This document shows, piece after piece, positions 12,913-18,775 of a stretch of DNA of 55,263 bases (the first letter of the stretch is position 1; each line of letters opens with the position of its first letter). The translations under genes and the position numbers were made by a program. Below the pieces are notes generated by a model, which was given only the letters and a program-made list of their open reading frames with translations, did no database searches and was not told the DNA's origin. Source of the DNA: an uncultured Bacilli bacterium (GTDB lineage Bacteria; Bacillota_I; Bacilli_A; RFN20; CAG-449); the NCBI GenBank assembly GCA_947591215.1, contig CANQCZ010000006.1:1-55263 (forward strand). Reading direction: 5' to 3'.

Positions 12913-14644
12913 AACACATAATAACGGCGAATTACGCCTTAAAAATGTCGGTGAACGGGTGACATTAATCGGTTGGGTTGCCAAAAAGAGAAATCTCGGC
13001 TCACTGGTTTTTATCGATCTTCGTGATCGTTACGGCTATACCCAAGTCATCGCCAAGGAAGAAGATTTTGAAAATTTAAATCAGATCAAAAACGAGTATC
13101 TCCTTCAAGTCACGGGTCTTGTGCAAAAGAAAGACACGCCGAATCCTAAATTGGCGACCGGTGAAATCGAAGTGGCGGCCGAAAAAATCGAAATAGTCAA
13201 TACAAGCGAGCAACCGCCTTTTATCATCGCCGATGAAACCGATGCTTTGGAAGATACGCGTTTAAAGTATCGTTATTTGGATTTAAGACGTCCAAAAATG
13301 CAAAAATTCTTGATGAAACGGGCCGCGATCTGCCGTTCGGTAAGAAAATATCTCGATAATCTCGATTTTATCGAAGTGGAAACTCCGGTTTTGACGCTTT
13401 CAACGCCGGAAGGAGCACGCGATTATCTAGTTCCGTCGCGGGTTAAAAAGGGTTCTTTTTACGCTTTGCCACAATCGCCGCAGCTTTTCAAACAACTATT
13501 GATGGTCGGCGGTATGGAACGCTATTACCAAATCGCTCGTTGCTTCCGCGATGAGGATTTAAGAGCGGATCGGCAACCCGATTTTACGCAAATCGATATC
13601 GAAACTTCGTTTTTGGATCAAGATCAGATCTTTGAAATCCTTGAAGGGCTCGTCAAGCAGATGTTTGAGGATGTAAACGGGGTAAAGATTGAAACACCAT
13701 TTAAAAGATTGCCGTACGTTGATGCCATCGATCGTTATGGTTCGGATAAACCCGACACCCGTTTTGGCTTTGAACTTCAAGATTTAAAAAAATACGTCGC
13801 TCAAATCGATGTCGCGGCGTTAAAACAAGCCGCGGCTTTTAAAGCCATCGTCGTTAATGGTATCGCTAATTCGATGAGTCGTAAAAATCTTGATGGACTC
13901 AACGAAATTTCAAGCAAATTCGGGATCAAGTCATTAATCGCTTTAAAATATCTAAATGGAACTTTAGAAGGATCGTTTACCAAATTTTTCTCTGAATCGC
14001 TTAAAAAACAATTAGTCAGTGATTTAAAACTTCAAGAAAATGATTTGATTTTGATGGCTTTTGGACCATATGAAGCGGTGACTTCAAGTTTAGGCGCGGT
14101 TCGTTCTTATTTTGGAAAAACTTTAGGTTTAATAAAAGAAGGAACTTACGATTTGCTTTGGATCGTCGATTTCCCGTTATTCCATTATGATGAACAAACG
14201 CAAAGTTACACTTCAGAACATCATCCGTTTACCCGTCCTCGTGACGAAGATTTAAAGTATTTGGATAGTGATCCGACCAAAGTGTATGGTTATTGCTTTG
14301 ATTTAGTGTTAAATGGTTATGAAACATTATCGGGTTCGTTACGTATCTACGATCAAAAAGTACAACGTAAGATCTTTAAAATTTTAGGCCTCAGTGAAGC
14401 GGACATCAATCGTAAATTCGGTTGGTTTATCGGGGCTTTGAAATATGGAACTCCGCCTCATGGCGGGGCGGCTTTCGGCCTTGACCGTTTGACGATGATC
14501 TTATCGGGCACTGAAAACATCCGCGATGTGATCGCTTTCCCCAAAAATTTATCGGCTACCTGTCCGATGACACAAGCGCCGATGCCGGTTGATGAAGCGC
14601 AACTTGACGATTTAGGAATCGCCGTTAAAAAAAGCGAGGAATAA
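12905..14644 (+). CDS. aspS: Aspartyl-tRNA synthetase
   Basis: Charges tRNA-Asp. The ATG at 12905 is chosen because GGAGGT lies 8 nt upstream and the family-typical MIRTHNNGEL start follows; an upstream in-frame ATG at 12881 adds eight unrelated residues within hisS. The product (579 residues) has an N-terminal OB-fold anticodon domain, class II motif 2 (CFRDEDLRADRQPDFTQID), a bacterial GAD insertion, and motif 3 (GGAAFGLDRL). It overlaps hisS by 8 nt, giving the usual Firmicute hisS-aspS operon under one T-box. Confidence 0.97.
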   Translation: MIRTHNNGELRLKNVGERVTLIGWVAKKRNLGSLVFIDLRDRYGYTQVIAKEEDFENLNQIKNEYLLQVTGLVQKKDTPNPKLATGEIEVAAEKIEIVNTSEQPPFIIADETDALEDTRLKYRYLDLRRPKMQKFLMKRAAICRSVRKYLDNLDFIEVETPVLTLSTPEGARDYLVPSRVKKGSFYALPQSPQLFKQLLMVGGMERYYQIARCFRDEDLRADRQPDFTQIDIETSFLDQDQIFEILEGLVKQMFEDVNGVKIETPFKRLPYVDAIDRYGSDKPDTRFGFELQDLKKYVAQIDVAALKQAAAFKAIVVNGIANSMSRKNLDGLNEISSKFGIKSLIALKYLNGTLEGSFTKFFSESLKKQLVSDLKLQENDLILMAFGPYEAVTSSLGAVRSYFGKTLGLIKEGTYDLLWIVDFPLFHYDEQTQSYTSEHHPFTRPRDEDLKYLDSDPTKVYGYCFDLVLNGYETLSGSLRIYDQKVQRKIFKILGLSEADINRKFGWFIGALKYGTPPHGGAAFGLDRLTMILSGTENIRDVIAFPKNLSATCPMTQAPMPVDEAQLDDLGIAVKKSEE

Positions 14645-17355: not shown

Positions 17356-17484
17356 TAGTTTTGAAAATGCGCCATCAACAAGGTGAATTTATCGAAAATC
17401 GTGAAATAAAATACTAAAGTTTCAGCAAAATTCACCTATTGAAAAGAAAGGAGACTGAAAAATATTAAGTTTTAAGATAGGGCT

Positions 17485-17904
17485 ATGAGTAAGAAAAAGA
17501 ATCGTAAACGATTAACGGGTTGGGCGCGAACAAAAGAATATCCTCATAAAAAACATCCCGCCACATATCATCGCAAAGGCAGTAATGAAATCGAATATAT
17601 TACTTTTACGCATTCTAAAGAAGTTGATTTTGGTAAAAAAGGAAAGGTTCGTACTATTCCGTTGTTAGATAATATCAGTCCTTTAGAGCGAGAAAAAAAT
17701 AAAAAGTATGGCAAAAATCGTTCTTATGCCTATCCTAGAGTGTTTATAGGAAAACGTTCGGCTTTAGGGAAAGAAACTGATGAGTTTAATCCAGTAGATT
17801 CCGATAAAGAATATATCAAAAAGATGTTTGAAGTTTTTCCTCGTGAGCAAGTCCCACTTACGGGTGGTAAAGGAAAATATCGAAAGAAAAAGTCTAAAAA
17901 ATAA
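17485..17904 (+). CDS. Small basic protein of unknown function beside the sRNA array
   Basis: I do not recognise a characterised family. The 139-residue protein is strongly basic: the first 12 and last 12 residues are mostly Lys/Arg, and the middle contains ITFTHSKEVDFGKKGK, IPLLDNIS and SYAYPRVFIGKRSALG. No signal peptide or membrane segment is seen. Composition suggests nucleic-acid or RNA binding (inference). Only a weak AGGG lies 2 nt before the ATG; a better GGAG is 34 nt further upstream. The stop codon is 8 nt from the 3' end of a convergent small RNA gene, and a broken copy of the last 40 codons recurs at 18372-18502 next to another copy of that RNA. Confidence 0.75.
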   Translation: MSKKKNRKRLTGWARTKEYPHKKHPATYHRKGSNEIEYITFTHSKEVDFGKKGKVRTIPLLDNISPLEREKNKKYGKNRSYAYPRVFIGKRSALGKETDEFNPVDSDKEYIKKMFEVFPREQVPLTGGKGKYRKKKSKK

Positions 17905-17911
17905 ATGCATT

Positions 17912-18004
17912 AAAAAAAGAAAGTGCCACGAGCAATTAAGCCTCTTTGCGTGGGGGCTACAAGGACGAAAGCGGTAAAACGCTAACACCGAGCCAAACAC
18001 TTTC
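17912..18004 (-). ncRNA. Candidate structured small RNA, copy 1
   Basis: Predicted transcript from +1 at 18004 (7 nt past the -10) to a seven-U tail at 17918-17912. P1 pairs GAAAGUG at the 5' end with CACUUUC next to the U-run. Inside P1 are two hairpin domains: GGCU/AGCC (containing CGGU/ACCG, with an alternative AGCG/CGCU pairing) and CCACG/CGUGG. The RNA converges on the 3' end of the small basic-protein gene. I match it to no RNA family that I know; I considered hammerhead, twister, pistol, HDV-like, T-box and the common riboswitches. Confidence 0.7.
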
Positions 18005-18011
18005 TGCACTT

Positions 18012-18041
18012 ATTGTATACGAGATTTCGAATATAAGTCAA
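18012..18041 (-). promoter_or_regulatory. Sigma-A promoter of sRNA copy 1
   Basis: Minus strand: TTGACT (18041-18036), an 18-bp spacer, TACAAT (18017-18012). The layout is identical in all three copies and places +1 at the first G of the RNA P1 stem. Confidence 0.75.
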
Positions 18042-18102
18042 TAAATATATTCACACATAAAGGAAAACAAAGGAGCTGATAACACTCTAAAAAATAAATA
18101 AC

Positions 18103-18198
18103 AAAAAAAGAAAGTGCCCGCAAATCGTATTAACGATTCCATTGTACGGGGCTCAAGGACGAAAGCGATAAAACGCTAACACCGAGCCAAACACTTTC
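18103..18198 (-). ncRNA. Candidate structured small RNA, copy 2 (divergent hairpin)
   Basis: The same architecture as copy 1: GAAAGUG/CACUUUC closing stem, GGCU/AGCC domain, U-tail at 18109-18103. The second hairpin is replaced: CCCG/CGGG instead of CCACG/CGUGG, and its loop now contains an extra AAUCGU/ACGAUU stem. Inside the first domain CGGU faces AUCG, keeping pairing through a G-U wobble where copies 1 and 3 have ACCG. These compensating changes support selection on RNA structure. Confidence 0.7.
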
Positions 18199-18205
18199 TG
18201 CACCT

Positions 18206-18235
18206 ATTGTACTCGAAATTTCAAATATAAGTCAA
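18206..18235 (-). promoter_or_regulatory. Sigma-A promoter of sRNA copy 2
   Basis: Minus strand: TTGACT (18235-18230), 18-bp spacer, TACAAT (18211-18206); +1 falls at 18198. The spacer sequence differs from copy 1 while both hexamers and the spacing are kept. Confidence 0.75.
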
Positions 18236-18371
18236 TAAATTTGTTAACATATAAAGGAAAACAAAGATGATTTATAACATTTCAAATATATGTGTGGCAT
18301 TGTGATTGGTAATAATAATGGACATAAATATGACATTTTGGTTATTTTTAAGATTTCATTGATAAATCAAA

Positions 18372-18502
18372 GAAGCATATGAGTTTGATTCAGTAAATCC
18401 GATAAGAAATATATCAAAAAGATGTTTGAAGTTTTTCATCGTGAGCAAGTTCCACTTATGGTTGGCAAAGGACAATATCGAAAGAAAAGGCCTAAAAAAT
18501 AA
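18372..18502 (+). pseudogene. Broken 3' duplicate of the small basic-protein gene
   Basis: Matches the last roughly 43 codons of the gene at 17485-17904, but one base is missing near 18397 (GTAAATCC versus GTAGATTCC), shifting the frame. After the shift about 34 codons remain in register (KKMFEVFHREQVPL then a Lys/Arg-rich tail and TAA at 18500-18502). There is no start or N-terminal part. It is followed at once by sRNA copy 3, as the intact gene is by copy 1. Confidence 0.8.
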
Positions 18503-18509
18503 ATAACAT

Positions 18510-18602
18510 AAAAAAAGAAAGTGCCACGAGCAATTAAGCCTCTTTCCGTGGGGGCTACAAGGACGAAAGCGGTAATACGCTAACACCGAGCCAAACACTT
18601 TC
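18510..18602 (-). ncRNA. Candidate structured small RNA, copy 3
   Basis: Nearly identical to copy 1, with the GAAAGUG/CACUUUC, GGCU/AGCC and CCACG/CGUGG stems all intact; the few substitutions seen fall in loops. The U-tail is at 18516-18510 and predicted +1 at 18602. Confidence 0.7.
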
Positions 18603-18609
18603 TAGACTT

Positions 18610-18639
18610 ATTGTATACGAGATTTCGAATCTAAGTCAA
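18610..18639 (-). promoter_or_regulatory. Sigma-A promoter of sRNA copy 3
   Basis: Minus strand: TTGACT (18639-18634), 18-bp spacer, TACAAT (18615-18610), the same geometry as copies 1 and 2. Confidence 0.75.
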
Positions 18640-18775
18640 TAAATTTGTTAATGCATGAAGGAAACAAATCAATATAGGATGAATTTATAGAAAATTGTCC
18701 TTTTAGAAAAATATTATAGAATTTAAAAGATACCTATGTTAAGATAACTAACGGAAACAAGAAAGAGGTGTTAAG

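Follow-up and report, generated by a model that had tools for sequence, protein, structure and literature searches.

What is the function of a small RNA gene that occurs three times beside, and convergent with, the gene of a small basic protein in an uncultured Bacilli bacterium (lineage CAG-449, assembly GCA_947591215.1)? The locus lies in contig CANQCZ010000006.1, of which the whole stretch from position 1 to 55,263 was analysed and is called the window in the following. From sequence comparisons and a structural model we consider it rather probable that the locus represents an RNA-neutralised toxin module of inovirus-like prophages, similar to type III toxin-antitoxin systems but convergent in its layout. 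Such a module would consist of a small basic protein, a candidate ribonuclease-type toxin of the MazF/PemK fold, and of a cognate structured RNA that has a strong promoter of its own, is transcribed towards the protein gene and ends at its stop codon. The RNA would bind and neutralise the protein in a type III-like manner and might, because its gene lies over the 3' end of the protein mRNA, additionally act on this mRNA as an antisense RNA. Loss of the prophage or of the RNA would then free the toxin and by this means stabilise the prophage or exclude rivals, and chromosomes in which only the RNA occurs, as a single gene or as an array, would hold antidotes.

The RNA genes of the window and their family

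The three RNA units are encoded on the minus strand and start at 18004, 18198 and 18602. In each of them the hexamers TTGACT and TACAAT, separated by a spacer of 18 base pairs (bp), are followed by 7 nucleotides (nt) up to the RNA start; the RNA body of 86–89 nt begins with G, is closed by a GAAAGUG/CACUUUC stem of 7 bp and runs into T7, just as an earlier note on this DNA had described. Copy 1 occupies 17912–18004 (closing stem 17998–18004 with 17919–17925, U tract 17912–17918) and is preceded by a promoter at 18012–18041 (TTGACT 18036–18041, TACAAT 18012–18017). Copy 2 (18103–18198; promoter 18206–18235) and copy 3 (18510–18602; promoter 18610–18639) follow on the same strand. The protein gene (17485–17904, plus strand) codes for 139 amino acids; its product belongs to a new family with the motifs HP...Y...THS...N and is the candidate toxin and RNA partner. 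Its stop at 17904 is separated by 8 nt from the U tract of the first RNA. The earlier note had given this distance and had claimed a duplication of the 3' end of the protein gene along with the RNA; both statements proved correct, the segments 17800–18066 and 18398–18664 being 91% identical. The duplicated protein part (18305–18499, plus strand; residues 75–139, 51% identity) is a decayed piece of 65 codons with two stops and accompanies the third RNA, whose gene is intact.

Folding of the three RNAs gave z-scores of -1.8, -4.0 and -1.6 and a structure of a closing stem (P1) plus two arms, the second of which is either of type A (CCACG...CGUGG; copies 1 and 3) or of type B (CCGU, 6 nt, GAAUCGU...ACGAUUU, GCGG; copy 2). 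The earlier claim of a single internal hairpin that covaries between the copies had to be given up, as a whole arm is swapped instead. Both types of arm are found again in other loci.

The insertion that contains these genes is located between ispG and rpmG and is present in two sister genomes as well. Immediately 5' of the protein gene the sequence is similar to the end of a gene that, in a related prophage (L010), lies ahead of the protein gene. Judged by these similarities, the locus is a decayed prophage remnant with one protein gene and three RNA genes of two types. A 19-bp direct repeat (17384–17402 and 18680–18698, 89% identical) brackets the remnant and is possibly a target or attachment duplication. 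In one sister genome (G029) the remnant is split at contig ends (L015 and L016) that have the inverted sequence TGAATTGAAAAAGTAAATTCCAGTTTC in common, which probably is an insertion element between RNA copies.

The RNA of the window is a real RNA family that is absent from Rfam. A rule composed of promoter, closing stem and T-run gave 27 matches within 537 kb of strand sequence versus 4.2 in shuffled sequence. The covariance search that the earlier note had recommended was performed with a model of the window RNA built from nine copies, and yielded strong matches to independent copies in Bacilli and Clostridia genomes with E values as low as 1e-27. Outside the genus the family is present in nine further genomes, once in a prophage next to the gene of a homologous protein and otherwise as a stand-alone chromosomal gene; in a sample of 295 genomes of the phylum the model detected no copy outside the genus at E ≤ 0.001. 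All strong copies have their own promoter 7–9 nt ahead of the same G-start and a T-run past the same stem, in unrelated flanks. When 16 copies were compared, 95% of the structure cells paired (92.2% in shuffles), two-sided changes were present in 4 base pairs versus 0.4 expected in shuffles, and pairing fell to 41–63% when the partners were slid by 1–3 columns. The 5' half of the RNA is nearly invariant between the prophage copies and most chromosomal ones. No Rfam family matched the window RNA at the gathering score, and a lax search returned only unrelated sub-threshold matches. As a refuting outcome the earlier note had named a match to a known family such as a terminator or a transposon end; a transposon end or simple terminator was rejected since the promoter, the body of 81–100 nt and the U tract are kept across unrelated contexts without a transposase.

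The protein family and its pairing with RNA

The homologues of the window protein in two related prophages (L010 and L011) are 89% and 78% identical to it. Members of the family are Lys/Arg-rich and hydrophilic, mostly have 95–150 residues and in most cases lack a hydrophobic segment; those of L127 and L136 have an extra hydrophobic N-terminus. Searches of Pfam, NCBIfam, PHROGs and PADLOC gave no family above the cut-off but only sub-threshold noise, e.g. a PET domain, and neither the protein nor the RNA was found in IMG/VR viral contigs or in phage and plasmid records. Five pattern matches in viral contigs were dismissed as chance matches within other DNA. A profile prepared without the window's group recovered the proteins of L011 (E = 0.0011) and L010 (E = 0.0027) and added members in L110 and L111, and a profile of ten sequences found matches in 16 of 171 genomes of the order. 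On the basis of these similarities we conclude that the small basic proteins of related prophages and the window protein form one family.

In every pair that was located, the RNA gene is downstream of the protein gene, convergent with it and equipped with its own promoter. Of 21 loci retrieved solely through protein homology, 16 proved to have an RNA with promoter and closing stem that points towards the 3' end of the protein gene, versus 22 of 414 control genes, based on a relaxed rule that had been written after part of the test loci had been inspected and a control list in which two loci are counted twice and a true pair (L069) is included. A stricter rule, set before inspection, detected an RNA at 9 of 20 loci (the nine include one pseudogene locus that was counted as two) versus 8 of 261 controls. 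The RNA is present at all 9 discovery loci. By eye, an RNA behind a weaker promoter can be recognised at two of the five loci missed by the relaxed rule (L110, L127), and at two others (L132, L133) the protein gene is a pseudogene and the RNA gene has partly decayed. Both members that the profile had added in L110 and L111 carry an RNA; that of a weaker member (L102) is less certain. In L121, L122, L129 and L136 the protein reading frame runs at its 3' end into the RNA gene, so that the same bases would be under constraint from both. The suggestion of the earlier note that an RNA-protein pair is present, for example with an antitoxin-like RNA, survived both checks that the note had named as able to refute it, the search for further copies and that for co-occurrence with the protein. 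The pairing is borne out by the copies and by co-occurrence, whereas the molecular mechanism can only be inferred.

A convergent RNA gene right after or over the stop codon is also the layout of a type I-like antisense RNA. Such an RNA would be counter-transcribed to the 3' untranslated part of the mRNA and would silence the protein, be it a toxin or another phage gene product, and stand-alone copies would silence phage transcripts in trans. In L011, L103 and L112, terminator-like hairpins past the promoter of the RNA suggest that the mRNA reads through the RNA gene, and Clostridia are well known to have type I systems (PMC6563280). However, a pure antisense RNA needs neither conserved sequence nor conserved structure, but large parts of the present RNA are near-invariant when prophage copies are compared with orphan genes of distant bacteria, and changes are compensated. 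The basic and hydrophilic protein is also unlike type I toxins. We consider this explanation unlikely.

The class of the RNA tracks the subfamily of the protein across loci. L103 and L112, whose intact proteins of 95 and 96 residues are 63% identical, have a common UGAAUUG class with a closing stem that has changed with compensation, L110 and L111 have one other class in common, the GAGUU class is found in L115, L135 and L132, and the class GAAUUAAGUUUC in L119–L122. Most classes are single closed RNAs; two tandem hairpins are present in L111 alone. An unplanned late check revealed a second family protein in the window's own genome (G000:C62), which resembles the L115 protein and is directly followed by a convergent promoter and RNA of the GAGUU class, as expected from the subfamily. 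Tight pairing and co-diversification would also suit a ribonucleoprotein, in which both partners make up a functional particle (a phage regulator, a packaging aid or a device for superinfection exclusion) and the RNA is required instead of inhibitory. RNAs that occur without the protein or outlive a broken one, as described in the next section, are however the reverse of what is predicted for a cofactor, and we regard such a particle as decidedly improbable.

A fold model of the window protein from 4 close sequences was useless (predicted local distance difference test, pLDDT, of 36). A model of a family relative from 10 diverse sequences had a pLDDT of 82 and a predicted template modelling (pTM) score of 0.72. 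The latter resembles MazF entries of several species (probability up to 0.96, template modelling score ~0.5, E above 0.1) and also matches viral proteins labelled 'Endoribonuclease' and 'PemK-like'. We take the conserved His-Pro and Thr-His positions of the family to resemble Arg-Pro and Thr-Thr/Ser of MazF-like proteins. According to the model, the family protein is probably a ribonuclease-type toxin of the MazF/PemK fold.

Several points weigh against a toxin module of this kind. The fold matches are weak, with a best E value of ~0.1 for PDB entries, 0.03 for viral proteins and none below 0.001, and E. coli MazF, represented by a single sequence, gave no match when compared by profile. The profile prepared without the window's group found the window protein itself at E = 0.15 only. 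At L125, the last of the five loci at which the relaxed rule had detected no RNA and a possible exception to the pairing, the protein is intact and a promoter is present but there is no clear RNA terminator. To these points the late date of the relaxed detection rule and the gene order of type III systems, discussed in the last section, have to be added.

Inovirus-like prophages and RNA without protein

L010 and L011 are intact prophages in which the window RNA family is convergent with the homologue of the basic protein. Each encodes a protein (743 and 754 residues) in which a Walker A-like motif is combined with hydrophobic segments at the N-terminus; the two proteins are 34% identical to each other. 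Since no Pfam family matched these proteins, their identification as Zot/pI-like rests on the motif, the membrane segments and a Rep neighbour: relatives that come from a viral contig and from a phage record (L072, L073) adjoin a gene with a Rep motif of the rolling-circle (HUH) type. As stated in an excerpt of an inovirus catalogue, about one third of the catalogued species have a pI-like ATPase with the membrane domain at the N-terminus instead of the C-terminus (PMC6813254), and the morphogenesis proteins of L010, L011 and L103 likewise have an N-terminal membrane domain. We call the two prophages inovirus-like because of the putative ATPase with its Walker A-like motif and predicted N-terminal membrane domain, the Rep-linked relatives and the described atypical morphogenesis proteins. 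Past the Rep gene of L072 (~13150–13240) there is a GC-rich hairpin, GGAATGGGTGTTCGCCGCTGAACC...GCACCC, a candidate replication origin.

Zot-like proteins were present in 15 of 74 genomes of one Clostridia family. Four of these prophages contain further RNAs with a promoter and a closing stem; in five cases the RNA is convergent with the gene of a small basic protein, and its body ends 5–25 nt from the stop. The RNA gene may be located before, after or far from the Zot gene; its place beside the protein gene is constant. For this reason a transposon end, a packaging signal and a complementary-strand origin were set aside. In filamentous phages, hairpins of the complementary-strand origin and of packaging lie in the intergenic region downstream of gene IV, and relative to the phage genes the RNA gene has the antisense orientation that a complementary-strand primer would have. 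A cis-acting DNA element of the single-stranded phage genome would, however, hardly be combined with a normal promoter and terminator and would not persist alone in chromosomes or in a six-gene array, and we find this explanation scarcely credible. One of the control genes, which codes for 164 residues and follows the Zot-like gene (L114, 14053–14547), likewise shows a convergent promoter and stem at its 3' end and may be a further pair with another protein type.

Stand-alone RNA genes are located between chromosomal genes in L058, L059, L060, L061, L062, L063, L064 and L117 and have no consistent neighbour. The only neighbour that any of them share is a calcium/sodium antiporter gene, which at two loci (L058, 3118–4134; L062, 2608–3657) is no more than 2.5 kb away from the RNA, likely by coincidence. 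Seven RNA-positive genomes (G174, G345, G617, G584, G572, G549 and G040, some incomplete and the last with a degraded copy) have no family protein at E ≤ 0.01; the genomes studied are largely metagenome assemblies, in which absences and taxon labels are at risk. In G617, six different RNA genes with a promoter each are arranged in tandem between uvrB and a phosphotransfer-protein region. Three of the six belong to classes that are paired with a protein elsewhere; one RNA is of the window family and two resemble the GAGUU class of L115 and L135. The other three RNA genes of the array (L061 in G617:C14, 8600–9260, minus strand; GATAGTC..., GGAACGACG... and GAAACGAG...) are of no class yet seen with a protein. 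When one half of a pair is broken, it is usually the protein half: L009 has a protein gene with an internal stop and two intact RNAs, and the RNA has outlived a broken protein also in L131 and, less clearly, in L132 and L133. The RNA persists where the protein is missing, and the protein is rarely found without an RNA, as would be expected if the RNA were the antidote and the protein the harmful half.

Stand-alone chromosomal copies in at least seven genomes, without a conserved neighbour, might alternatively point to a host small RNA with a function of its own that was captured by phages, the pairing with the protein being secondary. Several unrelated RNA classes, however, pair alike with one protein family, and the occurrence of the RNA is patchy even within a single bacterial family (3 of 74 genomes). 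This origin appears very improbable to us.

If the module is a toxin neutralised by its RNA, hosts might gather the RNA halves of prophage modules, up to the array of six genes, as heritable antidotes that allow them to lose, resist or tolerate filamentous phages; this would amount to an RNA immunity that grows by cassettes. We offer this idea tentatively and regard it as doubtful. If true, gut bacteria keep RNA antidotes against phages, and the orphan RNAs and the six-RNA array raise the general question whether hosts disarm phage addiction modules by retaining the antidote RNA. Within the open-access literature, the protein family and the several RNA classes matched to it in gut filamentous phages are undescribed. 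The phages that carry the pair are a little-studied group, and the pair itself is a small, clonable candidate for a new arrangement of RNA-neutralised toxins.

Comparison with known systems

Type III systems (ToxIN, CptIN, TenpIN, AbiQ) combine a small protein with a structured RNA, have several RNA classes matched to protein subfamilies and are located on mobile elements, as is the case here. Toxins of type III have the MazF/Kid fold in common (PMC5086642), and a similar fold is probable for the present family according to its model. However, the antitoxin RNA of type III systems is located upstream in one operon, whereas here it is downstream and convergent with its own promoter and terminator, and the type III RNA is cut as repeats from a precursor, whereas here usually one closed RNA is present (no search for pseudoknots was made). 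The module further differs by its orphan RNAs and an RNA array, and the protein has no sequence match to known toxins; a ToxN-, CptN- or TenpN-type match was sought in Pfam, NCBIfam and PADLOC and none was found. The module is not filed as type III because operon order and repeat structure differ.

The type I systems of Bacillota (txpA/RatA, bsrG/SR4, fst-RNAII and the prophage pairs of C. difficile) have in common with the module a convergent small RNA at or over the 3' region of the protein gene and a location in prophages. Their toxin is a short hydrophobic peptide and not a basic protein of mostly 95–150 residues, and the RNA here is conserved in structure and sequence beyond the needs of an antisense RNA. 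The module is not filed as type I because the toxin type does not fit.

For inoviruses, the excerpt of the catalogue reports predicted type II pairs and one type IV pair and mentions no comparable RNA partner (PMC6813254). The AbiF protein of C. difficile prophages is likewise phage-borne in Clostridia and accompanied by a structured regulatory RNA (PMC12373285); this RNA (RCd22) is located upstream of abiF and has the Rfam motif RF03085, whereas the RNAs described here match no Rfam family. The module may well work in the manner of a toxin-antitoxin pair.
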